A stretch of DNA of 42,860 nt from Bacillota bacterium. Its GTDB lineage: Bacteria > Sysuimicrobiota > Sysuimicrobiia > Sysuimicrobiales > Segetimicrobiaceae. Where the stretch lies: positions 1 through 42,860 of the forward strand of contig JAJPJL010000074.1 of NCBI GenBank assembly GCA_021324255.1, written 5' to 3'. Of the stretch, positions 1 to 34,878 are shown one piece after another. Position 1 is the first letter of the stretch. Each line of letters opens with the position of its first letter. The notes under the pieces are model-generated. The model did no database searches, was not told the DNA's origin, and was given only the letters and a program-made list of their open reading frames with translations. The position numbers and the translations under genes are program-made.

Positions 1-486
1 CCGGCCGGAGAAGGTCGCCTTCCGGTCGCTCCACAGCACCCGCAGCGCGGCGACGAACTCGTCCATCATCTGGCCCCGGTTGTAGGTGCCGAGATCGCCC
101 CGCACTCTGCGGAAGTCGTCCAACGAGCCGCCGAGCCCGATGCCGAGGGTGATCCGTCCCCCGGACAGCACGTCCAGGGTCGCCACTTGGCGGTTCAGGA
201 GTATCGGATGGTGATGCGGCAACACGATGGTGCTGGTCACAAACCGGATCCGGCGCGTCAGCGCGGCCAGATAGCCGATCGTCACCAGCGGGTCGTAGTA
301 GTTCGGCGGGTCGTCGAACCGCTCGGCGACGCGGGGCTCCGTTTCCAGAAATTCGTTGAGCCACAGCGAGTGATAACCCAGCGCGTCCGCGGCGGCGGCG
401 ACCTCGCGCATCCAGGCGCCGTCGACCGAGCGGATCGGATTGAGCCGGCCTTCCCGGCAGTTGGGCACGCCCGTGCTGAATTTCAT
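1..486 (-). CDS. LLM-class flavin-dependent oxidoreductase, C-terminus cut by window edge
   Basis: This is the first ~162 residues of a luciferase-like (bacterial luciferase/F420 superfamily) TIM-barrel oxidoreductase; the rest lies beyond base 1. The visible part starts MKFSTGVPNCREG and contains the family's strand segments, including RIRFVTSTIVLP near residue 77 and the conserved QVATLDVLSGGRITLGIGLG near residue 97. Such enzymes use FMN or F420 to oxidise or reduce small organic substrates in the cytoplasm. Its ATG (486-484) overlaps the stop of the preceding DUF3830 gene as ATGA, so it is the twelfth and last visible gene of the minus-strand operon. The N-terminal G-x-P-x-CREG signature recurs in the related gene at 14967-15980, marking both as one subfamily. 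Whether the cofactor is FMN or F420, and the substrate, cannot be told. Confidence 0.9.
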   Translation of the reverse strand, partial: MKFSTGVPNCREGRLNPIRSVDGAWMREVAAAADALGYHSLWLNEFLETEPRVAERFDDPPNYYDPLVTIGYLAALTRRIRFVTSTIVLPHHHPILLNRQVATLDVLSGGRITLGIGLGGSLDDFRRVRGDLGTYNRGQMMDEFVAALRVLWSDRKATFSGR

Positions 487-890
487 CCGATCCGCCGGAT
501 CGTGATCGTCTTGTCGCCCTCGTCGTGCATCCGGTCGAGCACCGCCAGCATCGCCGCCTGGTTCCGGACGAGGCGCGCGATGCGCGTGCCGTACTCCACC
601 CCGAGCACGGAGCGGTATTCCGCAGCGCCGTAGGCGACCAGCACTTCGCCCTTATCCGGACGCGCGATGAGGGTGCCCGGGTAGATCGAGCAGACGCGGT
701 GTTCCAGCCCGGTGACCGACCGGAGGCGCTCGACCGTGAACTCCGCCGCCCGTCCCGACCATTTCGTGTGCGTCAGCCGCGCCGTGAGCGGCAGCGCGTC
801 CCAAAACGAGGCCGTGGTCCGCGGCGCCCGGTCCTCCACCAGTTCCGCCTCGGCGACGACGCCGCCCACCTCGATCTCGATCTTCTTCAT
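483..890 (-). CDS. DUF3830 cyclophilin-like protein, copy 1
   Basis: This 135-residue protein belongs to the DUF3830 family, which has a cyclophilin-like beta-barrel fold and no established function. It starts MKKIEIEVGGVVAEAEL and shows the shared family pattern AP-x-T near residue 22, LP near 33 and H-x-KWSG near 40-46, then SIYPG, a GEVLVAYG strand and AEYR. The open frame continues upstream, but that part is a shadow of the neighbouring gene; the ATG at 890-888 overlaps the previous stop as ATGA. Its own TGA overlaps the next ATG in the same way. It is the third of three consecutive DUF3830 genes in transcription order and most resembles the first (1309-1746), sharing SIYPG, RP and YG-x-AEYR. 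No signal peptide is visible, so it is probably cytoplasmic. Confidence 0.85.
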   Translation of the reverse strand: MKKIEIEVGGVVAEAELVEDRAPRTTASFWDALPLTARLTHTKWSGRAAEFTVERLRSVTGLEHRVCSIYPGTLIARPDKGEVLVAYGAAEYRSVLGVEYGTRIARLVRNQAAMLAVLDRMHDEGDKTITIRRIG

Positions 891-1309
891 CGCTCCTCCT
901 CGCGCGCCAGCCGGATCGGCTTCCCGCCTTCGGCGCAGGTGGCTTTGACCTTGGCCAGAAACGCGCCCGCATCGCCCTCCAGCGTGCCGAGGTGGCAGGC
1001 CCAGGCGGCCGGGTGCGCGTGGTCGCGCGCCTGCGCCTGCCCGTAGCAGAACGCCATTTCGCCGTGTTCCGGCCGGAACGCCACGCCGGCGGGCGGGTAG
1101 AAGCTCACCATGTTCTCGATCGGCTGCGTCTTGTCCGCGAGCTTCGAAATGAGGATGTAGCCGGCCTCGCCGCTCCACCGTACGTGCCGCAGCGTCGCCT
1201 CGACCGGGAGCGCCGCCCAGAAGCGCCGGACCGTCTCCGGGGCGCTCTCCTCGTGCAACCGCGCCACCGCCACCACGCCGTCCAGCGTGATTCGCACCAG
1301 CTTCGCCAT
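887..1309 (-). CDS. DUF3830 cyclophilin-like protein, copy 2
   Basis: This is a 140-residue DUF3830 cyclophilin-like protein starting MAKLVRITLDGVVAVARL. It keeps the family core (AP-x-T, ALP, H-x-RWSG) but differs from its two neighbours: it has FYPPAGVAFRP followed by GEMAFCYGQAQARDHAHPAAWACHLG, giving a Cys- and His-rich middle instead of the YG-x-AEYR segment. The TGA at 889-887 overlaps the following ATG as ATGA, and the ATG at 1309-1307 shares one base with the preceding stop (TGATG), so the three paralogues are probably translationally coupled. The divergent middle suggests that the copies are specialised rather than redundant. No enzymatic residue can be assigned with confidence because the family has no known reaction. 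Confidence 0.82.
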   Translation of the reverse strand: MAKLVRITLDGVVAVARLHEESAPETVRRFWAALPVEATLRHVRWSGEAGYILISKLADKTQPIENMVSFYPPAGVAFRPEHGEMAFCYGQAQARDHAHPAAWACHLGTLEGDAGAFLAKVKATCAEGGKPIRLAREEER

Positions 1310-1746
1310 CACCGGCCCTCCGCCGCGCGGAGGCGAATCGTCGTCCGCCCCTTCACCGCGGTGGCCGCGAGCGCATCCAGCAGCGCGCGGGCTCCCGGCT
1401 CCAGTTCGCCCACCGGCGTGACCTGCCGCCGGCCGTCCGGCCAGCGGTACTCGGCGTCCCCGTAGGCAATCAGCAGCTCGGCGCCGGGCGCTCCCGGCGT
1501 CGGCGGCCGCACCGCCAGCACGCCCGGATAGATCGACACGACCGGCGACTCGAGAGCGCCGAGCGCGGCCATCGCGCCGCCCGAGACGTCCGCGAAGCAG
1601 GCGCTGCCCGACCACTTGCAGTGCTGGAGCGGGAGTTCCAGCGGCAGCGACTCGAGGAGCGCGGCCACCGTCTTGGGCGCGAGATCATCCCACAGCGTCA
1701 CCCGCGCCGATGCCCCTGCCACGGTCACTTCGATCGACTTGGCCAT
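1309..1746 (-). CDS. DUF3830 cyclophilin-like protein, copy 3
   Basis: This 145-residue DUF3830 protein is the first of the three tandem paralogues in transcription order. It starts MAKSIEVTVAGASARVTLWDD and carries APKTVAALLESLP and H-x-KWSG near residue 43, then SIYPGVLAVRP and ELLIAYGDAEYRWPDGR. Family knowledge is limited to a cyclophilin-like fold. It begins 34 bases after the stop of the binding protein at 1781-2617, the loosest spacing in this part of the operon, so the three copies and the luciferase-like gene that follows form a sub-block. The length fits the family (about 130-150 residues). The AYG-x-AEYR stretch is shared with copy 1 but not with copy 2 or the gene at 8674. Confidence 0.85.
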   Translation of the reverse strand: MAKSIEVTVAGASARVTLWDDLAPKTVAALLESLPLELPLQHCKWSGSACFADVSGGAMAALGALESPVVSIYPGVLAVRPPTPGAPGAELLIAYGDAEYRWPDGRRQVTPVGELEPGARALLDALAATAVKGRTTIRLRAAEGR

Positions 1747-1780
1747 CCTCTCCGTGCCCTCCCGTCCGTGTGTGCGCGGG

Positions 1781-2617
1781 CTACCCGCCGGTGCAGATCT
1801 GCCCGGGGCTCTTGAGCTCCGCGTCGTCCTCCGGCCCCAGGCCGTTGGCCTTGAGCGCCCGGAGCCACTCGCCGTTCTGATGCAGCTTCGTCAATTCGTC
1901 GTTCAGGGCCGCGGCCATCGCGCGGTTGTTGCAGTTGACGATGTTGTAGGCGATGTTCGACAGCACCGACTCGGGGAACCCGAAATCGCCCGGGTGCAGG
2001 TCGTGCGCGACGAGGCCGGGCGGCTGCTTGCCGCCGCGCCCGTTCACGTATCCCTGGACCTGGCCGTTGAGCAACGCTTGGATCGCCGATACCTCGTCCG
2101 GGAACAGCGCGGCGCCGGTGGCCGACCACTGTTGGAGATAGGGCGCCCACACGTATCCGATCACGGTCGCGATGCGCTTGCCCTCCATGCTCGCGGGCCC
2201 CGCGTACGGGAAGGACCGCAGCGTGAAGATGACCGCGCGGCTGAGGTAGAACGGGTATGTGTAGTATACGTGCTTCGCCCGCTCCTCCGTGTAGAAGACG
2301 CCCTCGCCGGCGTCCACCTTGCCTTGTTCGACCGCCAGGATCATCGACGGGAACGTCGTCTCGAACAGTTTGAGCCGCAGCCCGTGATCCCTGACGAACG
2401 CGTTGTAGAGCGCGCCGTCCATGCCCCCCAACGTGTCACCGGGGCCGACGATGATCTCGGGCGGCAGGGTTCCGTGCGTGGCCACGGTGAGATAGCCTGG
2501 GTTCACCAGATGCAGGCCCGCCGGCTGGGCCGCCGCACGCGGGCCGACGCCGCCGATCGCGCCCCACACGAGGAACAGGCACGCCAGCGCCCCGCTCGCG
2601 GTCCGCACCGGCGTCAT
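1781..2617 (-). CDS. ABC transporter substrate-binding protein, amino-acid type (family 3)
   Basis: This 278-residue periplasmic or lipid-free extracellular binding protein has an N-terminal signal peptide (MTPVRTASGALACLFLVWGAIGGVG, probable cleavage near AAA-QPAG). The mature part is a type II binding fold of family 3: GGMDGALYNAFVRDHGLRLKL, then VEQGKVDAGEGVFYTEERAK and YYTYPFYLSRAV, features seen in polar-amino-acid receptors. It would deliver a small solute to the permease pair at 5301-6663. The ATG at 2617 overlaps the stop of the FGD-like gene as ATGA; the longer open frame upstream is a shadow. It is a clear paralogue of the binding protein at 4427-5266 (shared VEQGKVD, HVYYTYPFY, VIGYVWA-YLQQ), so the importer has two receptors. 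The ligand is unknown. Confidence 0.9.
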   Translation of the reverse strand: MTPVRTASGALACLFLVWGAIGGVGPRAAAQPAGLHLVNPGYLTVATHGTLPPEIIVGPGDTLGGMDGALYNAFVRDHGLRLKLFETTFPSMILAVEQGKVDAGEGVFYTEERAKHVYYTYPFYLSRAVIFTLRSFPYAGPASMEGKRIATVIGYVWAPYLQQWSATGAALFPDEVSAIQALLNGQVQGYVNGRGGKQPPGLVAHDLHPGDFGFPESVLSNIAYNIVNCNNRAMAAALNDELTKLHQNGEWLRALKANGLGPEDDAELKSPGQICTGG

Positions 2618-3636
2618 CGCGCGGCCGCCTGTTCGCGCGCGGCCGCCGTTCGGAGGCGGGGGAGCACGTCTTCGCTGTACAGCTTGAGGAACCGCTTCTG
2701 GTCCGGGCCGGGCGCGTGGAAGATCAGGTGGGTGAACCCGAGCCGCAGGTACGGGCGGATGTGTTCGACCTGCTCGTCGGGATCGCTGGAGACGATCCAC
2801 CGGCTCGCCGCCCGCTCGAGCGGGAGCGCGTCGGCGCGCCGTTCCATCTCCACCGGGTCCTCGACGCCGACCTTCTCTTCCTGCGACAGGGCGAGTTGGG
2901 CCCAGTGGCGCGTGTCTTCGAACGCGCGCTTGCGGTCGTGATCGTACGAGACCTTCATCTCGATCGTCAGCTCGATGTCGGACAGGCTTCGTCCGGCCTT
3001 TTGCGCGCTTTCCTTCACCGCGGGCAGCAGCGTGTCGGCGTACAGCGCCATGCCCTTGCCGCTGGTGCAGATGAACCCCTCGGCGATCCGGCCCGCCAGC
3101 TTCGCCGCGGCCGGCCCCGAGGCGGCGACGTAGAGGGGCACCGGCTTGTCGGGCCGATCGTAGACCGTGGCGTTGGCCGTCCGGTAATAGGTGCCGTCGA
3201 ACGTGACCCGCTCCTGGGTCCAGAGGCGGCGGATCACCTCGATCGCCTCCCGGAACCGGGCGAACCGCTCCTTCTGCTCCGGCCACGTGATGCCGAGCGG
3301 CACCTCGTTCATGGACTCGCCCGTGCCGATCCCCAGCCAGACGCGACCGGGAAATAGGCAGGCGAGCGTTGCGGCGGCCTGCGCGACGATCGCAGGATGA
3401 TAGCGAAAGGTTGGGGTCACCACGCTCGTGCCCAGTGTGATGCGGCTCGTCCTCGCGCCGACCGCGCCGAGCCAGCTGAAGGAAAATGGCGCGTGTCCGC
3501 CAGTGTGACGCCACGGCTGGTAGTGATCGCTGATCGCGACGCTGTCAAAGCCGTACTCCTCCGCCGTGACGGCAAACTCCAGCAGATCTTGCGGGCCGAA
3601 CTGTTCCGCCGACGCCTTGTATCCGAACTTGATCAT
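2614..3636 (-). CDS. F420-dependent oxidoreductase of the glucose-6-phosphate dehydrogenase (FGD) family
   Basis: This 340-residue luciferase-fold enzyme aligns along its whole length with actinobacterial F420-dependent glucose-6-phosphate dehydrogenase (about 336 residues). Recalling FGD1, its catalytic His40, Trp44 and Glu109 correspond here to H38, W42 and E107 (SDHYQPWRH; GTGES), and its phosphate-binding Lys198, Lys259 and Arg283 to K194, K255 and R279 (CTSGKG; EEKVG; SRWIVSSDP). All six are present, so hydride transfer to F420 from a phosphorylated sugar or a similar substrate is plausible. It sits inside an amino-acid importer operon, 20 bases after the ATPase gene, and its stop overlaps the next ATG. 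A different substrate from glucose-6-phosphate cannot be excluded. Its presence implies that the host makes coenzyme F420. Confidence 0.9.
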   Translation of the reverse strand: MIKFGYKASAEQFGPQDLLEFAVTAEEYGFDSVAISDHYQPWRHTGGHAPFSFSWLGAVGARTSRITLGTSVVTPTFRYHPAIVAQAAATLACLFPGRVWLGIGTGESMNEVPLGITWPEQKERFARFREAIEVIRRLWTQERVTFDGTYYRTANATVYDRPDKPVPLYVAASGPAAAKLAGRIAEGFICTSGKGMALYADTLLPAVKESAQKAGRSLSDIELTIEMKVSYDHDRKRAFEDTRHWAQLALSQEEKVGVEDPVEMERRADALPLERAASRWIVSSDPDEQVEHIRPYLRLGFTHLIFHAPGPDQKRFLKLYSEDVLPRLRTAAAREQAAAR

Positions 3637-3656
3637 CGCGCGTCACCCCCTACAGG

Positions 3657-4427
3657 TTACCGCTTGACTCCGACCCGCAAGATGTCCCGTGTTCGCTGCG
3701 AGCGGGCCGCGGAGAACATCGTTTCCGCGGGGCCCTCTTCCACCACGGCTCCGCGCTCCATGACGACGATGCGATCGGCGACGTCCCGCGCGAAGCCGAG
3801 TTCGTGGGTCACGATGACCATGGTCATTCCTTCGTTGGCCAGCCGGCGCATCAATTCCAGGACTTCGTCCACCATCTCGGAGTCGAGCGCGGACGTCGGC
3901 TCGTCGAACAGGATCAGGTCGGGCTGCATGGCGAGCGCGCGGGCGATGGCGACGCGCTGCTTCTGGCCGCCGGAGAGCGTGCGCGGGTGCGCGTTGGCGA
4001 ACGCCTCGAGGCCGACGTGCCGCAGCAGCTGCAGCGCGCGGGCCTCGGCGGCGCTCCGGCCCTCATGCCGCACGTGCCGCGGCCCCAGCGTCAGGTTTTG
4101 CAGCGCCGTGAGATGCGGAAACAGTTCGAAGTGCTGGAACACCATGCCGATCCGGCTGCGGTATCCGCTTAACCCGACGCGCGCCCCGCCCGGCCAGCTG
4201 CCGATCTGTTCGCCCTTGTAGTACAGCTGCCCGCGCGTAGGCTCCACGAGCAGATTCAAGCACCGGAGCAGCGTGGTCTTGCCCGAACCGCTCGGCCCGA
4301 CGATGCATACTTTCTCGCCGCGCGCGACGCGGAAGTCGACGCCGTGCAACACTTCGCTGCGGCCGAAGCTCTTGTGGAGGTCGCGAAACTCCAGCAGCGA
4401 GCCGGCCGTCGCGGAGCCCTCCCGCAT
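3657..4427 (-). CDS. ABC transporter ATP-binding protein, polar amino-acid type
   Basis: This 256-residue cytoplasmic ATPase powers the importer formed with the permeases at 5301-6663. It has Walker A GPSGSGKTT (about residues 44-52), a Q-loop at MVFQHFELFP (~98), signature LSGGQKQR (151-158), Walker B LILFDEPTSALD (171-182) and the H-loop THE (~207). The FQHFELFPHLTALQN segment is typical of GlnQ/HisP-type amino-acid ATPases. The ATG at 4427-4425 shares one base with the stop of the upstream binding-protein gene (TGATG); the much longer open frame upstream is a shadow. It is the only ABC ATPase gene in the window, although two other importer gene sets (9205-12646 and 25973-29412) lack one. 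Confidence 0.93.
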   Translation of the reverse strand: MREGSATAGSLLEFRDLHKSFGRSEVLHGVDFRVARGEKVCIVGPSGSGKTTLLRCLNLLVEPTRGQLYYKGEQIGSWPGGARVGLSGYRSRIGMVFQHFELFPHLTALQNLTLGPRHVRHEGRSAAEARALQLLRHVGLEAFANAHPRTLSGGQKQRVAIARALAMQPDLILFDEPTSALDSEMVDEVLELMRRLANEGMTMVIVTHELGFARDVADRIVVMERGAVVEEGPAETMFSAARSQRTRDILRVGVKR

Positions 4428-5266
4428 CAGTGGCAGAGCTGCGGCGGCGCCTGCAGCGGCACGTCGCTGGCGGAGGTGAGTTTGTTCGCCGCGAGCACTT
4501 TGGCCCACTGGCCGGTCGTGTGCAGCTTCGTCATCTCGTCGTTGAGCGCCGCGGCCAACGGTTTGTTGTCGCATTTTACGAAATTGTACGCGGGCGTCGC
4601 GATCACCGACTCCGGGAAGCCGTAGTCCCCGGCCTTCAACAGGTGGGCCGCGACCCGCCCGTCGGCCTTGCTGAACACGGGGCCGTTGATGCTGTCGTCG
4701 CTGTTCACGTAGCCCTCGAGCTGTCCGTTGAGGAGCGCGGTCTCCGCGGCCGCGCTGTCGGGAAACAGCACAGCGGAGGAGCCGAAGGCCTGCTGCAGGT
4801 ACGTCGCCCACACATAGCCGATCACCGTGCCCACGCGCCTGCCCTTCAGGCTGTCGGGACCGGTGTAGGGAAACGTGCGCAGCGTGAACAGCGTAGCGCG
4901 TTCTTGGTAGAAGGGATAAGTGTAGTACACGTGCTGCGCGCGCTCGGGCTTGTAGTAGTAGTACGTGCCGACGTCGACCTTGCCTTGCTCCACGGCCAGG
5001 ATCACGGAGGCGAAGGTCGTCTGATACAGTTTCAGCTTCAGCCCCTGATCCCTGGCGAACGCGGTCAGGAGCGCGCCGTCGAGCGCGCCCAGCTGGTCGT
5101 TCGGGAGCACGACGAGTGCCGGCGGCGCCGACCCGTAGGTGGCCACGAGCAGAACGCCGGGTTGGACCAGCAGGTACGCGGGGGCGGGGCTTGCCGGGCC
5201 GCCCGCGGCCAGGATCAGGGGCGCACACAGCAGGAAGCACGCGAGCATCCTCGGAGCGCGTGTCAT
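4427..5266 (-). CDS. ABC transporter substrate-binding protein, amino-acid type, second receptor
   Basis: This 279-residue family 3 binding protein has a signal peptide (MTRAPRMLACFLLCAPLILAAGG). The mature part shows GALDGALLTAFARDQGLKLKL, VEQGKVDVGTYYYYKPERAQ, YYTYPFYQERATLFTLR and VIGYVWATYLQQ, matching its paralogue at 1781-2617. An in-frame ATG lies eight codons earlier, but a strong Shine-Dalgarno (AGGAGGGG) sits five to ten bases before the ATG at 5266, so that start is preferred. It ends TGATG into the ATPase gene. It is the receptor closest to the permeases, 34 bases after the permease stop. In the ligand region it has TYYYYKPERAQ where the paralogue has EGVFYTEERAK, suggesting different ligand preferences. 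Confidence 0.9.
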   Translation of the reverse strand: MTRAPRMLACFLLCAPLILAAGGPASPAPAYLLVQPGVLLVATYGSAPPALVVLPNDQLGALDGALLTAFARDQGLKLKLYQTTFASVILAVEQGKVDVGTYYYYKPERAQHVYYTYPFYQERATLFTLRTFPYTGPDSLKGRRVGTVIGYVWATYLQQAFGSSAVLFPDSAAAETALLNGQLEGYVNSDDSINGPVFSKADGRVAAHLLKAGDYGFPESVIATPAYNFVKCDNKPLAAALNDEMTKLHTTGQWAKVLAANKLTSASDVPLQAPPQLCH

Positions 5267-5300
5267 CGTCCCCTCCTGTCGTGATGGCATGCGATCGCCC

Positions 5301-5942
5301 TCACGAGTGCGCGTAGCTGCGCAGGCGGCGCTCCATCACCGCCACCGCCCGCGTCAGCGGCATCGTCACGACGACGTACAGGCCCATGATGATCGTCACG
5401 ACGAGCACGATCTCGCCGGTCCGGCTCATGGCGTTCTGACCGCGATACAGGATCTCCGGCGCCCCCACCGCCGCGGCGAGGGTCGCCGTCTTCAGCAGTC
5501 CCACGAACGAGTTCAGCAGCGGCGGCACCACGAAGGGAATCGTCTGCGGGACGACGACGCGCATCAACACCCCCATGCGGGACAGGCCGAGGCTGAATCC
5601 CGCCTCGCGCTGCGTCCACGGCACGGTCATGAAGCCTGCGCGGTAGTACTCTGCGGTAAACGCCGCGTCGGCGACGCCGAGCGCGAGGATCGCGGCCAGG
5701 ATCGAATTGATCTGGATGCCCACGGCGCCGAGGCCGAAGTACAACAGGTAGAGGATGACGAGCTGCGGCACCGACCGCAGCGTGATCGTGAGCGACGCCT
5801 GGAAAATTTTCACGGGCGCCAGGCCGAGATCCTGGAGGACGGCCAGGGCGAGTCCGAGCACGGCGCTCACCACCCACGCGCCGGATGCGATCTTGAGCGT
5901 CACGACGCCGCCCCGAAGCAGATCGGCAACCGTCGCGCTCAT
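5301..5942 (-). CDS. ABC transporter permease, polar amino-acid type (HisM/GlnP family)
   Basis: This 213-residue inner-membrane permease has about five hydrophobic helices. It carries the EAA loop contacting the ATPase: REAGFSLGLSRMGVLMRVVVPQTIPFVVPPL, with the conserved G spaced before the helix. FQASLTITLRSVPQLVILYLLYFGLG and the AAEYYRAGF-like segment (FTAEYYRAGF) are characteristic of amino-acid importers. A GTG three codons upstream is possible, but the ATG at 5942 has GAGGTG seven bases before it and starts ten bases after the previous stop, so it is preferred. With the product of 5953-6663 it would form the heterodimeric channel fed by the two binding proteins. Confidence 0.9.
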   Translation of the reverse strand: MSATVADLLRGGVVTLKIASGAWVVSAVLGLALAVLQDLGLAPVKIFQASLTITLRSVPQLVILYLLYFGLGAVGIQINSILAAILALGVADAAFTAEYYRAGFMTVPWTQREAGFSLGLSRMGVLMRVVVPQTIPFVVPPLLNSFVGLLKTATLAAAVGAPEILYRGQNAMSRTGEIVLVVTIIMGLYVVVTMPLTRAVAVMERRLRSYAHS

Positions 5943-5952
5943 CGGCGACACC

Positions 5953-6663
5953 TCAGGCGCCCGCCTGGGGGGCCAGGCGGGGTTCGGCCGCCCCCTGGGT
6001 TTCCTCGCCCATCCCCGCGCCGATCCCGAAGCGTCGCTCGAGCCAGCGAGCCAGCAGGCTGATCGGAAGGATCAGGATCAGGTAGAGCGCCGCCAGCACG
6101 AGGTACACCTGCATCGGCTCAAACGTCTGGGACACCAGGATCGTCGCCGTCAGCGTCACCTCGTTGACCGCGATCAGCGACGCGAGGGAGCTGTTCTTGA
6201 TGACGCCGATCAGCATGTTGAGGGTGCTCGGCACGCCCGGCGCGAGGACCTGGGGCAGGATCACGAGTCGAACGGTCGACGCCCAGCCGAGCCCGAGACT
6301 CGCCGCCGCCTCCCACTGCGTCTGCGGGATCGCCAGCAACGTGCCCCGGTACACCTCGGCCAGGTAGGCGGATTCGTTGATCGTCAGCGCGGCCACCGCC
6401 AGCCAGAACGCCGAGACGCCGAGCCCGGCCATGATGCGGCCCAGGCCGTAGTAGAAGAAGATGAGCAGGGCCAAGAGCGGGATGCTGCGCAGCAGGTCGT
6501 TGTAGAGGGCGGCCGCGACGCGCAGCGGCCGCCATTGGCTGATCGCGCAGAGCGAGAGCAGCGTGGACCACACGATCGTAAACAGCGTGGTGAACGCGGA
6601 GAGCTTGATCGTCACGATGAGGCCGCCTGCGAGGATGGCCAGCCAGGAGGCCAGTTGGCTCAT
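5953..6663 (-). CDS. ABC transporter permease, polar amino-acid type
   Basis: This 236-residue inner-membrane permease pairs with the one at 5301-5942. It starts MSQLASWLAILAGGLIVTIKLSAF, shows LLRSIPLLALLIFFYYGLG, and has the amino-acid-type segment NESAYLAEVYRGTLLAIPQTQWEAAASLGLGWASTVRLVILPQVL, which includes the EAA motif. The frame stays open 20 codons upstream, but the ATG at 6663 overlaps the stop of the amidohydrolase gene as ATGA, fixing the start. The C-terminus is a polar tail (ERRFGIGAGMGEETQGAAEPRL). Pairs like this import small polar amino acids or their derivatives. Confidence 0.9.
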   Translation of the reverse strand: MSQLASWLAILAGGLIVTIKLSAFTTLFTIVWSTLLSLCAISQWRPLRVAAALYNDLLRSIPLLALLIFFYYGLGRIMAGLGVSAFWLAVAALTINESAYLAEVYRGTLLAIPQTQWEAAASLGLGWASTVRLVILPQVLAPGVPSTLNMLIGVIKNSSLASLIAVNEVTLTATILVSQTFEPMQVYLVLAALYLILILPISLLARWLERRFGIGAGMGEETQGAAEPRLAPQAGA

Positions 6664-7487
6664 GTCACGCGACCGCCCCAGTCGTGCCCTGGACCCGGGA
6701 TGCCCGACACATGCGGGCTGCACCTCCGTGGCCGTCGTCGGCGCGGCGGCCCCGCGCCCGGTGGGGTCGACCGGCGCATCCCGCGCGGTCTGGGCCCCTG
6801 AGCGGGTCCTGGGCGCGGCGCGCGCCCGTCAGCCGCGGGCACACGGATACTCCGCAGCCACGTTTCGACGCCGGCGAGCGGGCGCACCCGCGCGTATTTT
6901 TGCGCCATGTCGAACAAGTTCAGGCGGTGGGGGGTGACGGCGCGGTCGAACACGCACTCCTCGACGACGATCACGCGGAACCGGTAGTCGTGCGCGTCCA
7001 CCACGGACGCCCGGACGCAGCCGCTCGTGGTGCAGCCGGCCACGAGCAGCGTGTCGGCGCCGAGGCCGATGAGATAGCCGGACAGGGGCGTGCCGAAGAA
7101 CGCGCTCGCGCCGGACTTCCGGTAGACCTGGTCGCCGCGATGCGGCGCGATCTCCCGCACGATGTCGGTCCCCATGCGCGCCTCGTGCCGCGTCGCCCCG
7201 GTCCGCCGCGGGAACCCGTGCGTGTACACGACCGGCACACCGCGCGAGCGCGCGACCCGCAGCAGCCTCGCGATCTTCGGGATGCTGCGCCACGCCGCCT
7301 CGCCACAGCTGTTCCGGAACTTGGCGATCGAGGCGAGAATCGGTTCGGGCTTGTCGCCCGTGAAATTGTACTCCATGTCGACGACGAGGACCGCGGGCCG
7401 CCGTCCCTCCGCCGGCAGCCGGCCGTAGCCCGCGCGCCGGTACACCTGCAATTCGTCGGCGCCCAGGAGTCCGTCCCACGCGTTCAT
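6660..7487 (-). CDS. Isochorismatase-family cysteine hydrolase (N-carbamoylsarcosine amidase-like)
   Basis: This 275-residue enzyme has the isochorismatase/cysteine-hydrolase fold with its Asp-Lys-Cys triad: D37 (VLVVDMEYNF), K124 (YRKSGASAFFGT) and C157 (GCTTSGCVRASVVDA). The Lys-to-Cys spacing of 33 equals that of N-carbamoylsarcosine amidase, and YTHGFPRR fits that branch, so hydrolysis of a carbamoyl or amide C-N bond is the best guess. It is the first structural gene after the GntR regulator, whose stop overlaps its ATG (7487-7485) as ATGA. It therefore probably opens or deaminates the imported compound. A basic, proline-rich tail of about 60 residues after position 215 is unusual for the family and may be disordered. 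The longer open frame upstream is a shadow. Confidence 0.88.
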   Translation of the reverse strand: MNAWDGLLGADELQVYRRAGYGRLPAEGRRPAVLVVDMEYNFTGDKPEPILASIAKFRNSCGEAAWRSIPKIARLLRVARSRGVPVVYTHGFPRRTGATRHEARMGTDIVREIAPHRGDQVYRKSGASAFFGTPLSGYLIGLGADTLLVAGCTTSGCVRASVVDAHDYRFRVIVVEECVFDRAVTPHRLNLFDMAQKYARVRPLAGVETWLRSIRVPAADGRAPRPGPAQGPRPRGMRRSTPPGAGPPRRRRPRRCSPHVSGIPGPGHDWGGRVT

Positions 7488-8200
7488 CGATGCACGAGAT
7501 CGAGACGCTGCGTCTGGTGGAGTTGCATGCGGACGAGCATCGCCTGGGTCATGTGCTCGCGCGCCAGCCGCTCGGCCTCGTCGGGATCGCGGCGCCGGAT
7601 GGCGGCGACAAGCGCCTCGTGTTCCTGGAGCGACCTGCGCGCTCGCGCCGGCTCCGCGAGCGAGTCGCGGCAGATCGGCCGCACGGCATCGTACAATCGC
7701 AGCACCTGCTCCGTCAGCCGCTTGTTGCGCGCCGTGCCGCACAGGAACTCGTGGAATCGCCCGTTCAGGGCCAGGAACCGTTCGATGTCGTTCTGCTCCG
7801 TGGCTTCGGCCATCTGGGCGCAGACGTTCTCTAAGATCACGAGTTCGCTCGGGGAGATCATCTGCGCGGACACGCGCGCGGCCGCGCCTTCCAGCGCGGC
7901 GCGCATCATGTAGATTTCCTCGATGTCTTTGAGGCTCAAGTCGGTGACGACGAGCCCCTGCCGGGGGACGTTCGTGAGGAATCCTTCGACCGTGAGCTGC
8001 CGGAGGGCCTCCCGCACCGGCGTCCGGCTCACCTGGAGGGTCTCCGCCAGCGCCCGCTCGTTCGTCACTGTCCCCGGGGGCAGCAGATTTCGGATGATCG
8101 CTTCGCGCAAGGTGTGATACACGGCTTCGCCGAGCGCCTTCGGTTTGGCGTGCTTGAGCCGCTCGGACGCCAGTTCTTGCAGCGCGTGCATGTCGAGCAT
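7484..8200 (-). CDS. GntR-family regulator, FCD (FadR-like) subfamily
   Basis: This 238-residue DNA-binding regulator heads the minus-strand operon. An N-terminal winged helix-turn-helix spans about residues 20-90, with recognition helix VSRTPVREALRQL. A C-terminal all-helical FCD ligand domain follows: DIEEIYMMRAALEGAAA, LNGRFHEFLCGTARNKRL and EHEALVAAIRRRDPDEAERLAREHM, carrying the histidines that usually hold a metal in this family. The aspartate normally before FH-x-x-L is Asn here (LNGRFH). Such proteins usually repress catabolic operons until a small acid binds. Its ATG follows a region holding a GGTAT-N8-ATACC repeat and a plausible promoter, consistent with autoregulation. It is similar to the second GntR gene at 12736-13500, especially across the HTH and PRQG wing. 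Confidence 0.92.
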   Translation of the reverse strand: MLDMHALQELASERLKHAKPKALGEAVYHTLREAIIRNLLPPGTVTNERALAETLQVSRTPVREALRQLTVEGFLTNVPRQGLVVTDLSLKDIEEIYMMRAALEGAAARVSAQMISPSELVILENVCAQMAEATEQNDIERFLALNGRFHEFLCGTARNKRLTEQVLRLYDAVRPICRDSLAEPARARRSLQEHEALVAAIRRRDPDEAERLAREHMTQAMLVRMQLHQTQRLDLVHR

Positions 8201-8673: not shown

Positions 8674-9093
8674 GTGCGCGAGATCACGATCGAGCTCGGC
8701 GGGATCAAGGCGGGTGGGGAGCTGTGGGACGAGCGCGCGCCGAAGACGGTGGCCGCGTTACTGGCGCACCTCCCCCTGGCCGATCGGACGATCCACGTGC
8801 GTTGGTCCGGCGCGGCGTGGCGCACGGAACAAAACTATCCCCTGCGGGTCGGGGACGTCGAGAACCGGGCCACGTGGTTGAATGTCGGCGACATCATCTA
8901 CTACGACGATCCTCGCTACGACCTGTACAAGGTGGCGTTCGTCTACGGCAAGAGCCAGTGGCGGGACGACCAAGGCGAGCTGTACGTCGCGCGCATCGGC
9001 AGGGTCACCGAGAATCTCGACGCGTTCGTCAAGGCAAGCGACGCGGTGTTGTTTCACGGCCCGCGGCCCGTCGTGATTCGCCTCGCTCCCTGA
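8674..9093 (+). CDS. DUF3830 cyclophilin-like protein, copy 4 (divergent operon)
   Basis: This 139-residue DUF3830 protein begins with GTG (MREITIELGGIKAGGELWDE) eight bases after GGAGACG. It retains APKTVAALLAHLP and IHVRWSG near residue 41-47 but then diverges from the three linked copies: it has WLNVGDIIYYDDPRYDLYKVAFVYGKSQWRDDQGELYVARIGRV. The GDI-x-YYDDP segment is closer to what I recall of typical stand-alone DUF3830 proteins. The function of the family is unknown beyond its cyclophilin-like fold. It is the first gene of the plus-strand unit and precedes a peptide-type ABC importer by 111 bases, so a DUF3830 gene accompanies both the importer operons that meet at this divergent promoter. 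Confidence 0.85.
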   Translation: MREITIELGGIKAGGELWDERAPKTVAALLAHLPLADRTIHVRWSGAAWRTEQNYPLRVGDVENRATWLNVGDIIYYDDPRYDLYKVAFVYGKSQWRDDQGELYVARIGRVTENLDAFVKASDAVLFHGPRPVVIRLAP

Positions 9094-9204
9094 ACCGGCG
9101 GGAGCGGGGCGGCCGCCATGGGGCCGGGAGAGGATTCGGCACCGCGGGCGTCGCGCCCCCGGCTCGACACCCGCGGAGATGCGAGTGGACGAGGAGGGAG
9201 AGCG

Positions 9205-10818
9205 ATGCAGCGAAGGCGTCCTCGAGCCGATTCCTTGCACCCGCCGGCGTCCGGTGCCCGCCGGCGACGCCTGACGCGCCGGGACCTGCTGCGGACGAGC
9301 GCCGCGGTGGGGCTTGGGGTCGCGCTGGGCCGGTACGCCGCCGGGGCGCCGGCCGCGTGCGGCGCGGCGGCGCCGCAGCCGGGCGGAACGCTCCGCGTGG
9401 GAGCCGTCGCGGACGTCCACACGCTCGATCCACACTACTCCGTCGATTGGTCCGAGCGCCCCGTGATGTACGCGCTCTACAACACGCTGGTGTCCGCGAC
9501 GCCGACGTTTGAGATCGCCCCGGAGCTGGCCCGGTCCTGGAAAGTCTCGCCGGACGGCCGGTCCATCACGGTCTCGCTCGCGCCCAACGTCAGATTTCAT
9601 GACGGGACCGCGTGCGACGCGGCGGCGGTCAAATGGAACATCGACTTTATCTTGAATCCGGCGAACAACTCGCCCCAGTTCAAACAGCTGGATCCGTTCC
9701 TCGCCGGCGTGGACGCGAGCGGGCCCACGACGGCGACGTTCCGGCTCAAGAAGCCGTACGCCGGGTTCCTCGCGGCCTTCACCGAGCGCCCGGGATTCAT
9801 CGTCTCCCCGGCCGCCTACCAAAAGTACGGGAAGGACTTTGGGCGGACCCCGGTGGGCAGCGGGATGTACCAGTTCGTGGAGTGGCTGCCGGACGACCAC
9901 GTGGCAGTCAAGCGGTTCGACGGGTACTGGGGCACGAAGAGCTACCTCGACGGCATCACCTACAAGGTCGTCCCCGATCCCGCGGTCCGCGACACCATGG
10001 TGCGCACCGCCGAGATCGACATCACGAGCGAGCCGGACCCCAAAGACGTGCCCGTGCTGCAGCGGGCCCCCGGCGTGAAGGTGGTGAGCGAGAACCCCTC
10101 CGGCCACTGGTGGGGCATCCAGTGGCGCGTCGACCGGCCGCCCTTCAACAACAAGGCGCTCCGCCAGGCCATCGCGTACGGCGTGGACCGCGACGAGTTC
10201 GTGAAGATCATGCTCGGCGGGCGCGGGAGCGTGGCCAACGGGCCCACGCCGTCGATCGTGTGGTGGTACAACCCAACCGTGCGGGGGTACACGTACGACC
10301 CCGAGCGCGCCAAGCGGTTGCTGGCCGAGGCCGGATACCAAAAGGGATTCTCGGCGGAGTTTTCAACCGACAACACGCCCGTGGGGTTGCAGTTCGCCCA
10401 GTTGCTGCAGGCCCAGCTCAAGCGTCTGAACGTCACGCTCACGATCAACCCGGTGGACCCCTCGAACCTGTACCAGCAGGTCCTGCAGCAAAAGGTGAAC
10501 TGGACGCGGACGGATTGGACGCTGCGCGCCGACCCCGACGGCCTGCTGCGCATCCTCTTCTACACCGGCAACTACGCGAACTCCACCGGCTACTCGAACC
10601 CGACCGTGGACAAGCTCCTCGATCAGGCCAACTCCACGTACGACCGCAACGCCCGCAAGAAGCTGTACGCGGAGATCGAGCAGCAGGTGATCGACGACGC
10701 GCCGTACGTGTGGGTCTTCTACCCGTCGGAGGACGCGCCGATGCGCACGGCGGTCCAGAACTACGCCTGGATTCCCGATTCGGTGCCCCGGTATCGGAGC
10801 GTGTGGCTGGCGAAGTAA
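9205..10818 (+). CDS. ABC transporter substrate-binding protein, peptide/nickel type (family 5), Tat signal
   Basis: This 537-residue family 5 (DppA/OppA-like) extracellular receptor has a twin-arginine signal: RRRLTRRDLLRTSAAVGLGVALG. Mature segments include GGTLRVGAVADVHTLDPHYSV, the family signature VRFHDGTACDAAAVKWNIDFIL, and GSGMYQFVEWLPDDHVAVKRFDGYWG. Earlier in-frame codons exist from 9118, but the ATG at 9205 follows GGAGGGAG by five bases. It binds peptides, opines or other organic cations and passes them to the permeases that follow; the two genes are separated by only six bases. Export through Tat implies folding before secretion. The ligand is unknown. Confidence 0.92.
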   Translation: MQRRRPRADSLHPPASGARRRRLTRRDLLRTSAAVGLGVALGRYAAGAPAACGAAAPQPGGTLRVGAVADVHTLDPHYSVDWSERPVMYALYNTLVSATPTFEIAPELARSWKVSPDGRSITVSLAPNVRFHDGTACDAAAVKWNIDFILNPANNSPQFKQLDPFLAGVDASGPTTATFRLKKPYAGFLAAFTERPGFIVSPAAYQKYGKDFGRTPVGSGMYQFVEWLPDDHVAVKRFDGYWGTKSYLDGITYKVVPDPAVRDTMVRTAEIDITSEPDPKDVPVLQRAPGVKVVSENPSGHWWGIQWRVDRPPFNNKALRQAIAYGVDRDEFVKIMLGGRGSVANGPTPSIVWWYNPTVRGYTYDPERAKRLLAEAGYQKGFSAEFSTDNTPVGLQFAQLLQAQLKRLNVTLTINPVDPSNLYQQVLQQKVNWTRTDWTLRADPDGLLRILFYTGNYANSTGYSNPTVDKLLDQANSTYDRNARKKLYAEIEQQVIDDAPYVWVFYPSEDAPMRTAVQNYAWIPDSVPRYRSVWLAK

Positions 10819-10824
10819 CCGCGC

Positions 10825-11769
10825 GTGTGGCGGTACATCGTCGCCCGGATCGCCGCCGTCATCCCGATGACGGTGCTGGTCACGATGGCGGTGTTTTGGC
10901 TCTTGCACGGGCTCCTTGGGGATCCGACGCTCCTCATCCTCGGCCGGGATGCGGACCCGCAGACGGCGGCGAGGCTGCGGCATGAACTCGGCCTGGACCG
11001 CCCGCTGGACGCGCAGTACCTCGCCTGGCTCAGCGGCGCGGCGCGCGGCGATCTCGGCCGCTCGCTGCGGACGCGGCAGCCGGTGGCGCAGGCCATCCGC
11101 GAGCGGCTCGGGCCCACCGCGGAACTGACCCTCGCGTCGATGGCGCTGGCCGCCGCGGCGGCCCTGGTGCTGGGGACCGTCGCCGGCACGTGGTACGGAT
11201 CGGCGGCGGACTTCGGGGTGTCGAGCCTGTGCGTGATCGGCGTGACGCTGCCGAACTTCCTGCTCGGCATCAGCCTGATCCTCGTATTCGCCCTCACGCT
11301 CCGATGGGTCCCCAGCGGGGGCTTCGTCCCGCTCTTCCCGAACCCGGGCGCCAACCTCCGGCACATGGCGCTGCCGATCCTGACCCTGAGCGTCGCCTAC
11401 GTCGGCATCCTGAGCTTGGTGCTCAAATCCAGCCTCCGCGCCACGCTCGGCGCGCTCTACGTGCAGACGGCCAGAGCCAAGGGTCTCGTCGAACGCCGCG
11501 TGCTGGTCCGGCACGCGCTGCGGAACTCCCTGATCCCGGTGCTCAGCGTGCTCGGCATCGAGTTCGGCCGGCTCTTCGGCGGCGCCGTCGTGACCGAAAC
11601 CGTCTTTGCCCTCCCCGGGGTTGGCCGGCTGCTCGTGGACGCGATCTTGGGCCGCGACTTTCCCGTCGTGCAGGCCGTGGTCGTGCTGATGACGTTCGGG
11701 GTCCTGTGTGTCAATCTCGCCGTGGATCTCTCCTACGCCTGGCTCGATCCCCGCGTCTCGTATGGGTAA
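10825..11769 (+). CDS. ABC transporter permease, DppB/OppB type
   Basis: This 314-residue permease starts with GTG six bases after the receptor gene. Six membrane helices are apparent: helix 1 at MWRYIVARIAAVIPMTVLVTMAVFWLLHGLLGDP, then after the periplasmic loop GLDRPLDAQYLAWLSGAARGDLGRSL further helices. The EAA loop is RATLGALYVQTARAKGLVERRVLVRHALRNSLIPVL, as in DppB, and the end DLSYAWLDPRVSYG is also typical. It forms the transmembrane heterodimer with the product of 11762-12646, which it overlaps by eight bases. Import of a peptide-like solute is expected. Confidence 0.93.
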   Translation: MWRYIVARIAAVIPMTVLVTMAVFWLLHGLLGDPTLLILGRDADPQTAARLRHELGLDRPLDAQYLAWLSGAARGDLGRSLRTRQPVAQAIRERLGPTAELTLASMALAAAAALVLGTVAGTWYGSAADFGVSSLCVIGVTLPNFLLGISLILVFALTLRWVPSGGFVPLFPNPGANLRHMALPILTLSVAYVGILSLVLKSSLRATLGALYVQTARAKGLVERRVLVRHALRNSLIPVLSVLGIEFGRLFGGAVVTETVFALPGVGRLLVDAILGRDFPVVQAVVVLMTFGVLCVNLAVDLSYAWLDPRVSYG

Positions 11770-12646
11770 CCTCGAGGCGGCCCGCGGTGTGCTCGCGGGC
11801 CGGCCGGCGGCCCGCCCGCGATCCGCCCGGTGGCGCGTGCTCGGGCGGAATCGCGCGCTCGCGGCGGGCGCGGTGCTGAGCATCGCGATGACGATCGTGG
11901 CGGCCGGCGCGCCGGTGCTGGCCCCCTATGACCCGCTGGCGATCCATCCGAACCACACGCTGGAGGGCCCGACGCGGGCGTTTCCGCTCGGGACGGACGA
12001 CCTCGGCCGGGACAACCTCAGCCAGGATCTCTACGGGGCGCGGCTGTCGCTCGTGGTGGGCCTGGGCGCCGTCGCCCTCGGCATCCTGGGCGGCCTCCCA
12101 TGGGGTCTGGCGAGCGGCTTCTCCGGCGGACCGTCGGGGTATCTGCTCATGCGGCTGGCGGACCTCGTGCTCGTGTTCCCGTCGCTGGTGCTGGCGCTCG
12201 TGATTCGGGCCCTGCTGGGGGCGGGCGTCGGCAACGTCATCGTCGCGCTGGGCGCCACGATCATGCCCGCGCTGGCCCGCGTCGTTCGCGGCGAAGTGCT
12301 GGCGCTCCGGGAGCGCGACTTCATGATCGCCGCCGTCGCGGTGGGAGCGCGCGGCTCGCGGATTCTCGCCCGCCACGTCATTCCCAACGTGCTCGACCTC
12401 GTCGCCGTCCTCGGCGCGATCTACATGGGCGGGGCGATCCTGACGGAGGCGAGCCTGTCCTTTCTCGGCTTCGGGACGCCGCCGCCGGCGCCCAGCTGGG
12501 GCCGCATCCTGCAGGAAGGGTATTCGTACCTCGCGATCACGCCCTGGCCCTCGCTCGCGGCCGGGGTGGCGATTTTTCTGACGGTGCTCGGCTTCTACCT
12601 CGCGGGGGAAGGCGCCCGCCGGATCGTCCAGCGCGACCGCATGTAG
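11762..12646 (+). CDS. ABC transporter permease, DppC/OppC type
   Basis: This 294-residue permease pairs with the DppB-type gene upstream. It shows the family's N-terminal pattern (one helix, then APYDPLAIHPNHTLEGPTRAFPLGTDDLGRDNLSQDLYGARLSL), and an EAA loop VLALRERDFMIAAVAVGARGSRILARHVIPNVL, ending with ASLSFLGFGTPPPAPSWGRILQEG. The ATG at 11762 lies inside the last codons of the preceding gene (eight-base overlap), and the open frame further upstream is a shadow. No DppD/DppF ATPase genes follow; the next gene is a regulator. The importer must therefore borrow ATPases encoded elsewhere. Confidence 0.93.
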   Translation: MGNLEAARGVLAGRPAARPRSARWRVLGRNRALAAGAVLSIAMTIVAAGAPVLAPYDPLAIHPNHTLEGPTRAFPLGTDDLGRDNLSQDLYGARLSLVVGLGAVALGILGGLPWGLASGFSGGPSGYLLMRLADLVLVFPSLVLALVIRALLGAGVGNVIVALGATIMPALARVVRGEVLALRERDFMIAAVAVGARGSRILARHVIPNVLDLVAVLGAIYMGGAILTEASLSFLGFGTPPPAPSWGRILQEGYSYLAITPWPSLAAGVAIFLTVLGFYLAGEGARRIVQRDRM

Positions 12647-14966: not shown

Positions 14967-15980
14967 TCAGGCCGCCGCGAACGCCGGCATGACGCTCCGG
15001 GCGAAGACGTCCATGTCGTGCAGCAGCTCGTCCATCGTGTCCACGACGAATACAATGCCGAGGTGCGTCGCGCCGGCAGCCTCAAACGCTCGAATCTGAT
15101 CCACGATCTGGGCCGGGGTGCCGAGCAGGTTGCCGGCGCGATAGCGCGCCAGGATCTCGTCGTCGGGCTTGCGGGTCTCGGCCGCCGTTCGCCGGAGGTG
15201 CTGAGAGCGCAAGGCGCGGATCTCCGCGTCCCGCCGGCTGTCGCCGAAGGTCAGCCACGTTTGCACGTGAAGGCGGATCTGTTCCGGATCCCGGCCGTGC
15301 GCCGCCGCCGCGGCCTTTGCCTCCCGCCAGGCTCGACCGGCTCGCTCCGGCGGCAGGCCCGCCAGGATCAGCCCGTCGGCGAGGCGGCCAGCCCGTTGCA
15401 GGCCGACCGGCTTGTGCGCCGCGAGGTAGATAGGAAGGGGCGACTGGCTCGGCTTCGGCGCGAGCTCGACGCCGGCAAACTGCACGTACTCTCCGTGGAG
15501 GCTGGCCGGCCCGTTCCCGAAGAGCAGGCGGAGACCCCGGATCCCTTCTTCGAGCCACCGCCCGCGGTGGACGTCTTTGTGGGCCGGGTGCAGCGCTTCA
15601 AATTCCTCACGGTTGGAGCCGAGGCCCACGCCGAGCAGGACGCGGCCGCCGCTCAGCCGGTCGAGCGTGGCCACCTGCTTGGCGAGCAGCACGATGTCGC
15701 GCTGCGGCACGACGATCGTGCTCAGCATGAAGCGGAGCCGCTCCGTGACGTTGACGAGGCTGGCGTAGGTGACCAGCGGTTCGTAGAAGTTCGGGGTGCC
15801 GGGCTGGGTCTCGCGGATACCCTGGCGAGACGTCAGGTGATCATTGGACCAGATCGAGTAGTAGCCGAGCTCCTCGGCCCGGCGCGCGAAGGTCGTCAGC
15901 GCCTCGGGGCGCACAAACCCAACCGGGTACGCGGTGCCCTCGCGGCACCCGGGAAAGCCGGCGCCGAAGCGGATCGCCAT
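14967..15980 (-). CDS. LLM-class flavin/F420-dependent oxidoreductase
   Basis: This complete 337-residue luciferase-like TIM-barrel oxidoreductase starts MAIRFGAGFPGCREG. It contains YSIWSNDHL, RLRFMLSTIVVPQRDIVLLAKQVATLDRLSGGRVLLGVGLG, the mid-barrel segment PLPIYLAAHKPVGLQRAGRLADG, and a C-terminal TPAQIVDQIRAFEAAGATHLGIVF. The CREG start links it to the truncated gene at 1-486. It would carry out a flavin- or F420-dependent redox step on a small organic substrate. The gene stands alone, convergent to tcuB, and has a GntR-type palindrome 41 bases upstream of its ATG (16021-16042), so it probably belongs to the same regulon as the operons around 8200-8674. FMN versus F420 cannot be decided. 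Confidence 0.92.
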   Translation of the reverse strand: MAIRFGAGFPGCREGTAYPVGFVRPEALTTFARRAEELGYYSIWSNDHLTSRQGIRETQPGTPNFYEPLVTYASLVNVTERLRFMLSTIVVPQRDIVLLAKQVATLDRLSGGRVLLGVGLGSNREEFEALHPAHKDVHRGRWLEEGIRGLRLLFGNGPASLHGEYVQFAGVELAPKPSQSPLPIYLAAHKPVGLQRAGRLADGLILAGLPPERAGRAWREAKAAAAAHGRDPEQIRLHVQTWLTFGDSRRDAEIRALRSQHLRRTAAETRKPDDEILARYRAGNLLGTPAQIVDQIRAFEAAGATHLGIVFVVDTMDELLHDMDVFARSVMPAFAAA

Positions 15981-33430: not shown

Positions 33431-34564
33431 CTAGACGCGAAAGCGTGCGGGCGAGAACGGCGCGAGGTCCACGTCCGGAGTCCGGCCGAGCACGGCATCA
33501 CCGACGATCTTGCCGCTGAACGGTCCGAGTTGCAGGCCGCTCGGGCCGTGGCCGGTCGCCACGTACGCTCCCTCGACGGACGGCAGCGGTCCAAGCACCG
33601 GCAGCCCGTCGGCCGACAGCGGCCGCAGGCCGACGCGCATCTCCACGACCTCCGCGGGCGCCAGTCCCGGCGCCACCCGCATCGCCTGCGAGAGCACCTC
33701 GCGGACCCCGCCGGCCGTGAGCACCGGCTCGAATCCCGATCCGGTCTCGCGCGTCGCGCCCGCAACGATCCGACCGCCGGGCCACGCCACGATATAGTGT
33801 TCGCGGAACCCGCTGATGATGGGCCACTCGCCGGTGGGGCGGCCGGCGAGGCGCAGGTGGATGATCTGCCCTCGCTGCGGCGCGACCCGGACCGGCATGT
33901 CGAGCGCGTCGGTGAGCGCCGGGGACCACGCCCCGCCGGCGATCACGACGCTCGAGGCCCGAAGCTCCTCCCGGTCGACGGCGACACCGGCGGCGCGCCC
34001 GTGCTCGACGAGGACCCGGGCGACGCTGCCCTGCCGGATGCGGACACCGCGGCGCTCGCCGGCGCGGCGCAGCGCGCGGGCGAGCAGCCGTCCGTCGACG
34101 CGCCCGGCGGCACGGGACAGTAACGCGCCGTGCACGTCCCCGAGCGGCGGGAACAGCCGCCGCGCCTCGTCCGGCGCGATCTCGCGGAGGTCCTCCGGAG
34201 CGGGCCGCCCCGTGGCGGCCTGCCGCGCAAAGATCGCAGCGCGGGCCGCCTCGAACTCGCGACGGTCGCGCTCGTCGCTTGCGATCAGCATCAGCGGACA
34301 ACGCGCGTACCCCGTGTCGCCCGCATCGTCCGCCTCGAGGCGCGCGATCAACGCCGGATAGTAGTCGAACGCCTTGACGGCGAGCTCGTGCAGGGGATCG
34401 GTGCCGCGGCTCAGGGCCCCGCCGGAGAGGATGCCCGCGCCGGCCGCCGTGGCCTGCCCCGCGTCGCTGCGGTCGACCAGGGTCACGCGCGCGCCTTCGC
34501 AGACGAGATGGTAGGCGGCGGACAGCCCGACCACGCCGCCTCCGACCACGACGACGTCGCTCAT
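33431..34564 (-). CDS. Glycine-oxidase-like FAD-dependent oxidoreductase
   Basis: This 377-residue DAO-superfamily enzyme starts MSDVVVVGGGVVGLSAAYHLVCEGARVTLVDR. Features of glycine oxidase ThiO and DadA follow: AGILSGGALSRGTDPLHELAVKAFDYYPALI, VAPQRGQIIHLRL, and the C-terminal FAD region VGLRPLSADGLPVLGPLPSVEGAYVATGHGPSGLQLGPFSGK. It would oxidise glycine, sarcosine, N-methyl or D-amino acids to imines. It converges on hyuA with a 61-base gap. In a hydantoin pathway it could act on the N-substituted amino acid released by ring opening. No thiamine genes are near, which argues against a dedicated ThiO role. Confidence 0.9.
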   Translation of the reverse strand: MSDVVVVGGGVVGLSAAYHLVCEGARVTLVDRSDAGQATAAGAGILSGGALSRGTDPLHELAVKAFDYYPALIARLEADDAGDTGYARCPLMLIASDERDRREFEAARAAIFARQAATGRPAPEDLREIAPDEARRLFPPLGDVHGALLSRAAGRVDGRLLARALRRAGERRGVRIRQGSVARVLVEHGRAAGVAVDREELRASSVVIAGGAWSPALTDALDMPVRVAPQRGQIIHLRLAGRPTGEWPIISGFREHYIVAWPGGRIVAGATRETGSGFEPVLTAGGVREVLSQAMRVAPGLAPAEVVEMRVGLRPLSADGLPVLGPLPSVEGAYVATGHGPSGLQLGPFSGKIVGDAVLGRTPDVDLAPFSPARFRV

Positions 34565-34589
34565 CGCCCGCTCGCCCGCGGCGCGCCGG

Positions 34590-34781: not shown

Positions 34782-34878
34782 CAGCGGCTCCTCGACACGA
34801 AGGCATGCGTGGTCCCACTGGACTGTACGGGTCCGGCGGGGACAAGTCCTCGCACCGGTCGAGGTGACCGCGGCCGCC

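Follow-up and report, generated by a model that had tools for sequence, protein, structure and literature searches.

The window analysed here (the whole stretch of DNA, contig JAJPJL010000074.1, 42,860 nucleotides, from a bacterium of the Segetimicrobiaceae) begins with a run of genes encoding an amino-acid-type importer, an isochorismatase-fold cysteine hydrolase, two luciferase-like (LLM) enzymes and three proteins of the family DUF3830. Comparison with related genomes gives good support to the conclusion that this run is composite: an 8-kb block was inserted into an older cluster, where it separates the isochorismatase gene from dppA. It is likewise well supported, from sequence, that the first of the LLM-type enzymes is FGD, a glucose-6-phosphate dehydrogenase that recharges the cofactor F420. 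Taken alone, the insertion and the FGD assignment are very probable. The whole scheme, in which a catabolic block was inserted into an older nitrogen-compound catabolic cluster and acts by the steps proposed below, we put at roughly 0.45.

A composite gene run

Open reading frame calls placed twelve consecutive genes on the reverse strand, from position 8200 to the window edge, with intergenic gaps of -4, -4, 1, 10, -1, 20, -4, 34, -1, -4 and -4 bases. A preliminary description of this DNA had reported twelve tightly spaced genes on one strand; the gaps of -4 to +34 bases bear this out, and Pfam agreed, with refinements, with the families it had named (three DUF3830, two SBP_bac_3, two BPD_transp_1, one ABC_tran, two Bac_luciferase and one isochorismatase-fold hydrolase). 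It had also judged that the combination looks like a complete pathway, which needs correction: because the window is an entire contig (C94, of an assembly of 3.74 Mb in 142 contigs), the run is cut inside its twelfth gene, the LLM gene. At its cut end the run shares an exact 107-base overlap with the beginning of contig C65, and there is no other such place in the genome. On C65 the order is the remainder of the LLM gene, a third SBP_bac_3 gene, DppA, DppB and DppC, and then DUF3830 genes on the opposite strand; C65 and C24 overlap by 57 bases. As for the single operon that had been proposed, the gene run is real, but it is composite, the FGD/LLM/DUF3830 block having been inserted behind the GntR regulator and isochorismatase genes.

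The comparison was made with the genome of a sister species (G001; the present genome is G000), and the coordinates in this paragraph refer to the joined C94/C65 sequence. The sister locus is co-linear with positions 34296-36156 and with 44230-49112, whereas 36157-44229 are missing there, and dppA directly follows the isochorismatase gene with no block between them. The missing 8.07 kb comprise genes 3-12 of the run and the first gene on C65, which encodes a binding protein; together these encode two permeases, three binding proteins, an ATPase, FGD, three DUF3830 proteins and the LLM oxidoreductase. A similar block is present in G001, but on another contig. Nucleotide identity to G001 is 86.5-95.5% for the flanking orthologues; for the block genes, compared with the G001 copy, it is 79.0-83.6%, and for the three binding-protein genes 68.5-79.0%. 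Contig C71 of G001 is identical to a stretch of Centralia_MAG_233. Both junctions each fall within a single contig. In G006, which belongs to a different genus, DppABC also stands directly behind the isochorismatase gene, so the ancestral arrangement was probably the one lacking the block.

The left junction lies at about position 6704 of the window (6680..6760, reverse strand), where co-linearity with the sister stops. Here the isochorismatase gene has lost its native stop codon and continues for about 56 extra, non-homologous codons, ending in an ATGA overlap with the permease gene. The junction alignment also showed, at this left junction, a remnant that looks like the ribosome-binding site and start of dppA and that recurs at the right junction. 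The two genes that precede the block, both on the reverse strand, are members of the older DUF3830/DppABC cluster. The first gene of the run (7484..8200) encodes a GntR-type (FCD-like) transcriptional regulator with NCBIfam GntR-family matches, none above cut-off, and the second (6660..7487) the isochorismatase-fold cysteine hydrolase; their orthologues in the sister species are L076_7 (92.6% nucleotide identity) and L076_8 (219 amino acids, 92.7%), respectively. The recipient cluster probably serves the import and breakdown of nitrogen compounds.

The importer genes of the block, also on the reverse strand, encode two amino-acid-type ABC permeases (5953..6663 and 5301..5951, both PF00528, with 79.0% and 81.3% nucleotide identity to L075_4 and L075_5), two family-3 solute-binding proteins (A, 4427..5290, and B, 1781..2617, both PF00497) and an ABC ATPase of the polar amino acid type (3657..4427, PF00005; its best NCBIfam matches, GlnQ and TcyN, are under cut-off). 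The gene of binding protein A is absent from this position in the sister copy.

FGD, the LLM oxidoreductase and the hydrolase

The product of the gene at 2614..3636 (reverse strand) scored 497.4 bits against TIGR03554, above the cut-off of 420, and is 59% identical to FGD1 of Mycobacterium tuberculosis. In the pairwise alignment, residues E13, D39, H40, W44, E109, T195, K198, K259 and R283 are all conserved. Those other than Lys198, Lys259 and Arg283, including His40, Trp44 and Glu109, we take to be active-site residues. Lys198, Lys259 and Arg283 form the phosphate pocket of FGD1 (PMC5352752). Among the 41 genomes searched, FGD was above cut-off only in G000 and G001; in both sister copies of the block its gene lies between the ATPase and binding-protein genes, with a 4-base overlap in the present copy. 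The genome also encodes cofD (303 bits, above cut-off) and cofG, which is divided over two contigs, with one piece above cut-off. FGD probably recharges F420 for the neighbouring LLM oxidoreductase, which would leave a single redox step on the substrate.

The LLM gene (1..486, reverse strand, PF00296) encodes 326 amino acids once continued on C65, and the full-length protein scored 206.8 bits against TIGR03619, an F420-dependent family with a cut-off of 166.9. A further LLM gene of the window (14967-15980), also above the TIGR03619 cut-off, resembles the LLM gene that adjoins a fused DUF3830 gene in G007 and G009.

The hydrolase scored 105.7 bits against PF00857, with the conserved Asp, Lys and Cys residues visible in alignments, and its closest solved chains are 4l07 and 3ot4/3uao, then N-carbamoylsarcosine amidohydrolase (26st/1nba). 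The preliminary description had called it an amidohydrolase; the Asp, Lys and Cys residues that it had pointed out are confirmed, but the enzyme belongs to the cysteine hydrolases with an isochorismatase fold and not to the amidohydrolase superfamily. Import combined with C-N hydrolysis and redox chemistry is still a fair reading of the run, except that, the gene at 2614..3636 being FGD, one of the two supposed redox steps most plausibly serves to recharge the cofactor.

Copies and fold of DUF3830

DUF3830 corresponds to PF12903, with a Pfam gathering cut-off of 26 bits. The block encodes three non-identical DUF3830 proteins of 135-145 amino acids on the reverse strand (1309..1746, 887..1309 and 483..890, with 35.8, 51.2 and 47.3 bits), and a fourth copy (52 bits) is encoded by a divergent gene of the older cluster on the forward strand (8674..9093), so that all window copies are above the cut-off; in L102 the fourth has a relative with 91% identity. 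As many as 13 matches occur in a single genome of the host lineage, where the copies form distinct clades that recur across genomes and include one fused double form. The strongly conserved residues include a Glu and a W-S-G motif. An LLM gene adjoins DUF3830 in 12 clusters of 7 genomes of the host family, two of which (G009 C61 and G006 C6) were read from coordinates only. The present genome has a second DUF3830 triplet followed by an LLM gene (L013:3367-5897, on contig C14), whose best NCBIfam matches are to methylene-H4MPT reductase, under cut-off; this arrangement also occurs in G001, G003, G005, G007 and G009.

The AlphaFold2 model of the protein encoded at 887-1309 (pLDDT 93.8) matched the fold of 3kop with a Z-score of 19.9. 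The Pictet-Spenglerases KslB and McbB matched with Z of about 18 and a root-mean-square deviation of 1.8-2.2 over 129-132 residues, TM1367 with 16.2 and cyclophilin A with 12.8. A profile search with DUF3830 recovered KslB at an E-value of 7e-5; a second DUF3830 profile did not recover McbB, and its extra matches, DARPins with weak repeat matches, were judged spurious. By its model, DUF3830 is cyclophilin-like and, among enzymes, nearest to the Pictet-Spenglerases, although a common fold does not imply a common reaction. Among the papers searched, none names both Pictet-Spenglerases and cyclophilins, and none mentions DUF3830.

Neighbours of DUF3830 in other phyla

In 17 of the 18 annotated plasmid neighbourhoods of DUF3830, genes for hydantoinase/dihydropyrimidinase, allantoinase, dihydroorotase-family proteins, acetamidase, M20 hydrolase, the uricase pathway or related functions lie nearby, Thalassospira being the single exception. 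Natronorubrum is a weak case: asparaginase is its nearest such gene, and hydantoinase lies at a greater distance. Haloferax volcanii also has a DUF3830 match. Genes for DUF3830, isochorismatase, LLM, Zn-hydrolase and hydantoinase are grouped in Haladaptatus, and on a plasmid of Agrobacterium vitis a DUF3830 gene lies near rutA, isochorismatase and dihydropyrimidinase genes. Cyclic-ureide- or amide-type genes accounted for 20 of the 66 nearest and 23 of the 301 farther genes in views of 33-40 kb from 11 plasmid records (Fisher p = 3e-6), a classification made by hand and non-blind from annotation text.

Thirty DUF3830 loci of Chloroflexota type, of about 3.4 kb or less, contained urate/allantoin genes in 13 cases and xanthine-dehydrogenase-type genes in others, and representatives exceeded the cut-offs of the NCBIfam models of allantoinase AllB, allantoate amidohydrolase and adenine deaminase. 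In L128, L136, L144, L145, L148 and similar loci, DUF3830 adjoins genes for allantoinase, allantoate amidohydrolase, OHCU decarboxylase, HIU hydrolase or uricase. DUF3830 is mostly single-copy in the Chloroflexota-type sample (99/400 genomes). A scan of named genomes with a narrow DUF3830 alignment returned three loci only. From the neighbours in other phyla we infer the substrate class, a cyclic ureide or amide, and by analogy they suggest that the block serves the catabolism of an allantoin-, hydantoin- or pyrimidine-like compound.

Proposed scheme and alternatives

In the proposed scheme, a small nitrogen compound would enter through the amino-acid-type importer, served by up to three binding proteins, and FGD would oxidise glucose-6-phosphate to supply F420H2. 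With this F420H2 the TIGR03619-family LLM enzyme would reduce either the compound itself or an intermediate. The three DUF3830 proteins could carry out ring chemistry, for example by opening or closing the ring or by tautomerisation, and a resulting amide or carbamoyl bond would be cleaved by the recipient cluster's isochorismatase-fold hydrolase. The order of the steps, the substrate and the DUF3830 reaction are those that we infer. A more tentative proposal, which we favour less than its negation, is that DUF3830 is an unrecognised enzyme family providing a missing or alternative step of cyclic-ureide breakdown (urate, allantoin, hydantoin) through a Pictet-Spenglerase-like cyclophilin fold, and that its paralogue sets, expanded in this lineage, were coupled in the inserted block to F420H2 supply by FGD and to an F420-type LLM reductase.

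Several points weigh against the scheme. There is a small chance that the contig is chimeric. A search of 400 Chloroflexota-type genomes found no FGD gene less than 20 kb from DUF3830, the closest being 23 kb away, so that the link of FGD to DUF3830 comes from one block in two sister metagenome-assembled genomes; both families are present in 45 of the 400, above the expectation for independence, but not as neighbours, and shared ancestry may well account for this. We found no close solved or characterised relative of the LLM enzyme, and its cofactor and direction are therefore predicted from its family. The kinds of gene counted near to and far from DUF3830 on the 11 plasmid records were assigned by hand and non-blind. 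The DUF3830 proteins of the window score 36-52 bits in Pfam, compared with mostly 85-125 for the purine-linked Chloroflexota copies, so function may not carry over, and the run contains no allantoinase, uricase or hydantoinase gene.

The combination of an LLM enzyme with an isochorismatase-fold hydrolase is that of RutA and RutB, and the neighbourhood on the A. vitis plasmid fits a Rut-like oxidative pathway, in which the LLM enzyme would be a flavin mononucleotide-dependent monooxygenase that opens a pyrimidine-like ring and the hydrolase a ureidoacrylate hydrolase. We consider this quite improbable: the LLM enzyme is above the cut-off of an F420 family, the NCBIfam matches listed for it do not include RutA, the hydrolase scores only about 26 bits against RutB but 109 bits against its closest solved relatives, and FGD is encoded in the same run. 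Degradation of creatinine or N-methylhydantoin is a further candidate reading, given that the window also has HyuB and DAO genes at other positions, but N-carbamoylsarcosine amidohydrolase gives the hydrolase a lower score than 4l07 and 3ot4 do.

FGD might instead serve stress or general F420 recycling and stand in the run by chance, the LLM and DUF3830 genes being the true catabolic unit. Related genomes do keep LLM and DUF3830 together without an FGD above cut-off, and FGD lies far from DUF3830 in the Chloroflexota-type genomes; the conserved position of FGD in both sister copies, with its overlap here, argues otherwise, and we regard chance placement as unlikely. Somewhat unlikely, too, is that the block has no cyclic-ureide role, importing an ordinary amino acid or an opine with DUF3830 as binding or assembly proteins rather than enzymes. 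The importer is of the amino-acid type, sets of distinct paralogues would suit a heteromeric structural complex, and the DUF3830 fold is common to cyclophilins and uncharacterised proteins. Against this stand the cyclic-amide and ureide hydrolase genes that recur beside DUF3830 in bacteria and archaea, and the strong conservation of its residues, the Glu and the W-S-G motif among them.

The survey of conserved co-occurrence suggested by the preliminary description had a mixed outcome. The block recurs in one sister species, at another location, LLM and DUF3830 recur together in the host family, and DUF3830 accompanies cyclic-ureide genes in other phyla. Of the genomes examined, however, only this one has the exact order isochorismatase-importer-FGD, and no FGD turned up within 20 kb of DUF3830 in the Chloroflexota-type sample. 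The preliminary description knew of no described pathway with this content, and among the papers searched, none of which mentions DUF3830, we found none either.

Other features of the window

Genes of a DppA-, DppB- and DppC-like importer of the older cluster lie on the forward strand at 9118..12646 (from open reading frames; 92-93% nucleotide identity in the region co-linear with the sister). No DppD/DppF ATPase gene was seen adjoining the DppABC sets at 9118-12646 of the window and at L014:1491-4930. At 29456-33369 the window encodes HyuB (Pfam, above cut-off) and then a long gene resembling HyuA from its start; a DAO-family flavin adenine dinucleotide-dependent oxidoreductase is encoded at 33431-34564 on the opposite strand to these genes. 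Promoter and terminator scans gave no more matches than in shuffled sequences, the Rfam search gave no match, and the tRNA search found none.

Comparison with known systems

These results assign DUF3830, a family of bacteria and archaea, to cyclic-ureide catabolism as a testable proposal and identify the enzyme fold nearest to it. The block is also an example, from an uncultured lineage, of a catabolic unit that brings along an enzyme to recharge F420; according to a 2021 review, the F420 enzymes of non-actinobacterial bacteria were by then without experimental study (PMC8498797).

In urate/allantoin clusters of Chloroflexota type and of haloarchaea, DUF3830 likewise stands beside cyclic-ureide enzymes, but mostly as one copy, nearer to the Pfam type and with no FGD within 20 kb, whereas the run lacks allantoinase and uricase. 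The Pictet-Spenglerases KslB (9ns6) and McbB (3x27) have a cyclophilin-like catalytic domain, as in the DUF3830 model, but their chains of 273-340 residues contain a further domain that is absent from the single-domain DUF3830 proteins of 135-145 residues. The catalytic Glu of McbB is Glu97. The Rut pathway shares an LLM enzyme and an isochorismatase-fold hydrolase with the run; the subfamilies in the window are not those of RutA and RutB, and an F420 supply is present here. FGD1 (M. tuberculosis, 3b4y; Rh-FGD1 of Rhodococcus jostii, 5lxe) is like the present enzyme in TIGR03554 membership, in its 59% identity to FGD1 and in active-site and phosphate-pocket residues, but the present FGD, assigned from its sequence, sits in an importer/DUF3830 run. 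In the picrate/dinitrophenol operons of Rhodococcus opacus and Nocardioides simplex, Fno is encoded together with F420H2-dependent hydride transferases (PMC5352752). There, as here, a catabolic run pairs the gene of an F420-reducing enzyme with that of a neighbouring F420-type enzyme for hydride transfer; the reducing enzyme is Fno in those operons and FGD in the present block, and the amino-acid importer and DUF3830 occur only here. By analogy, the FGD/LLM pair may work in the same way as the reductase/hydride-transferase pair of the picrate operons.

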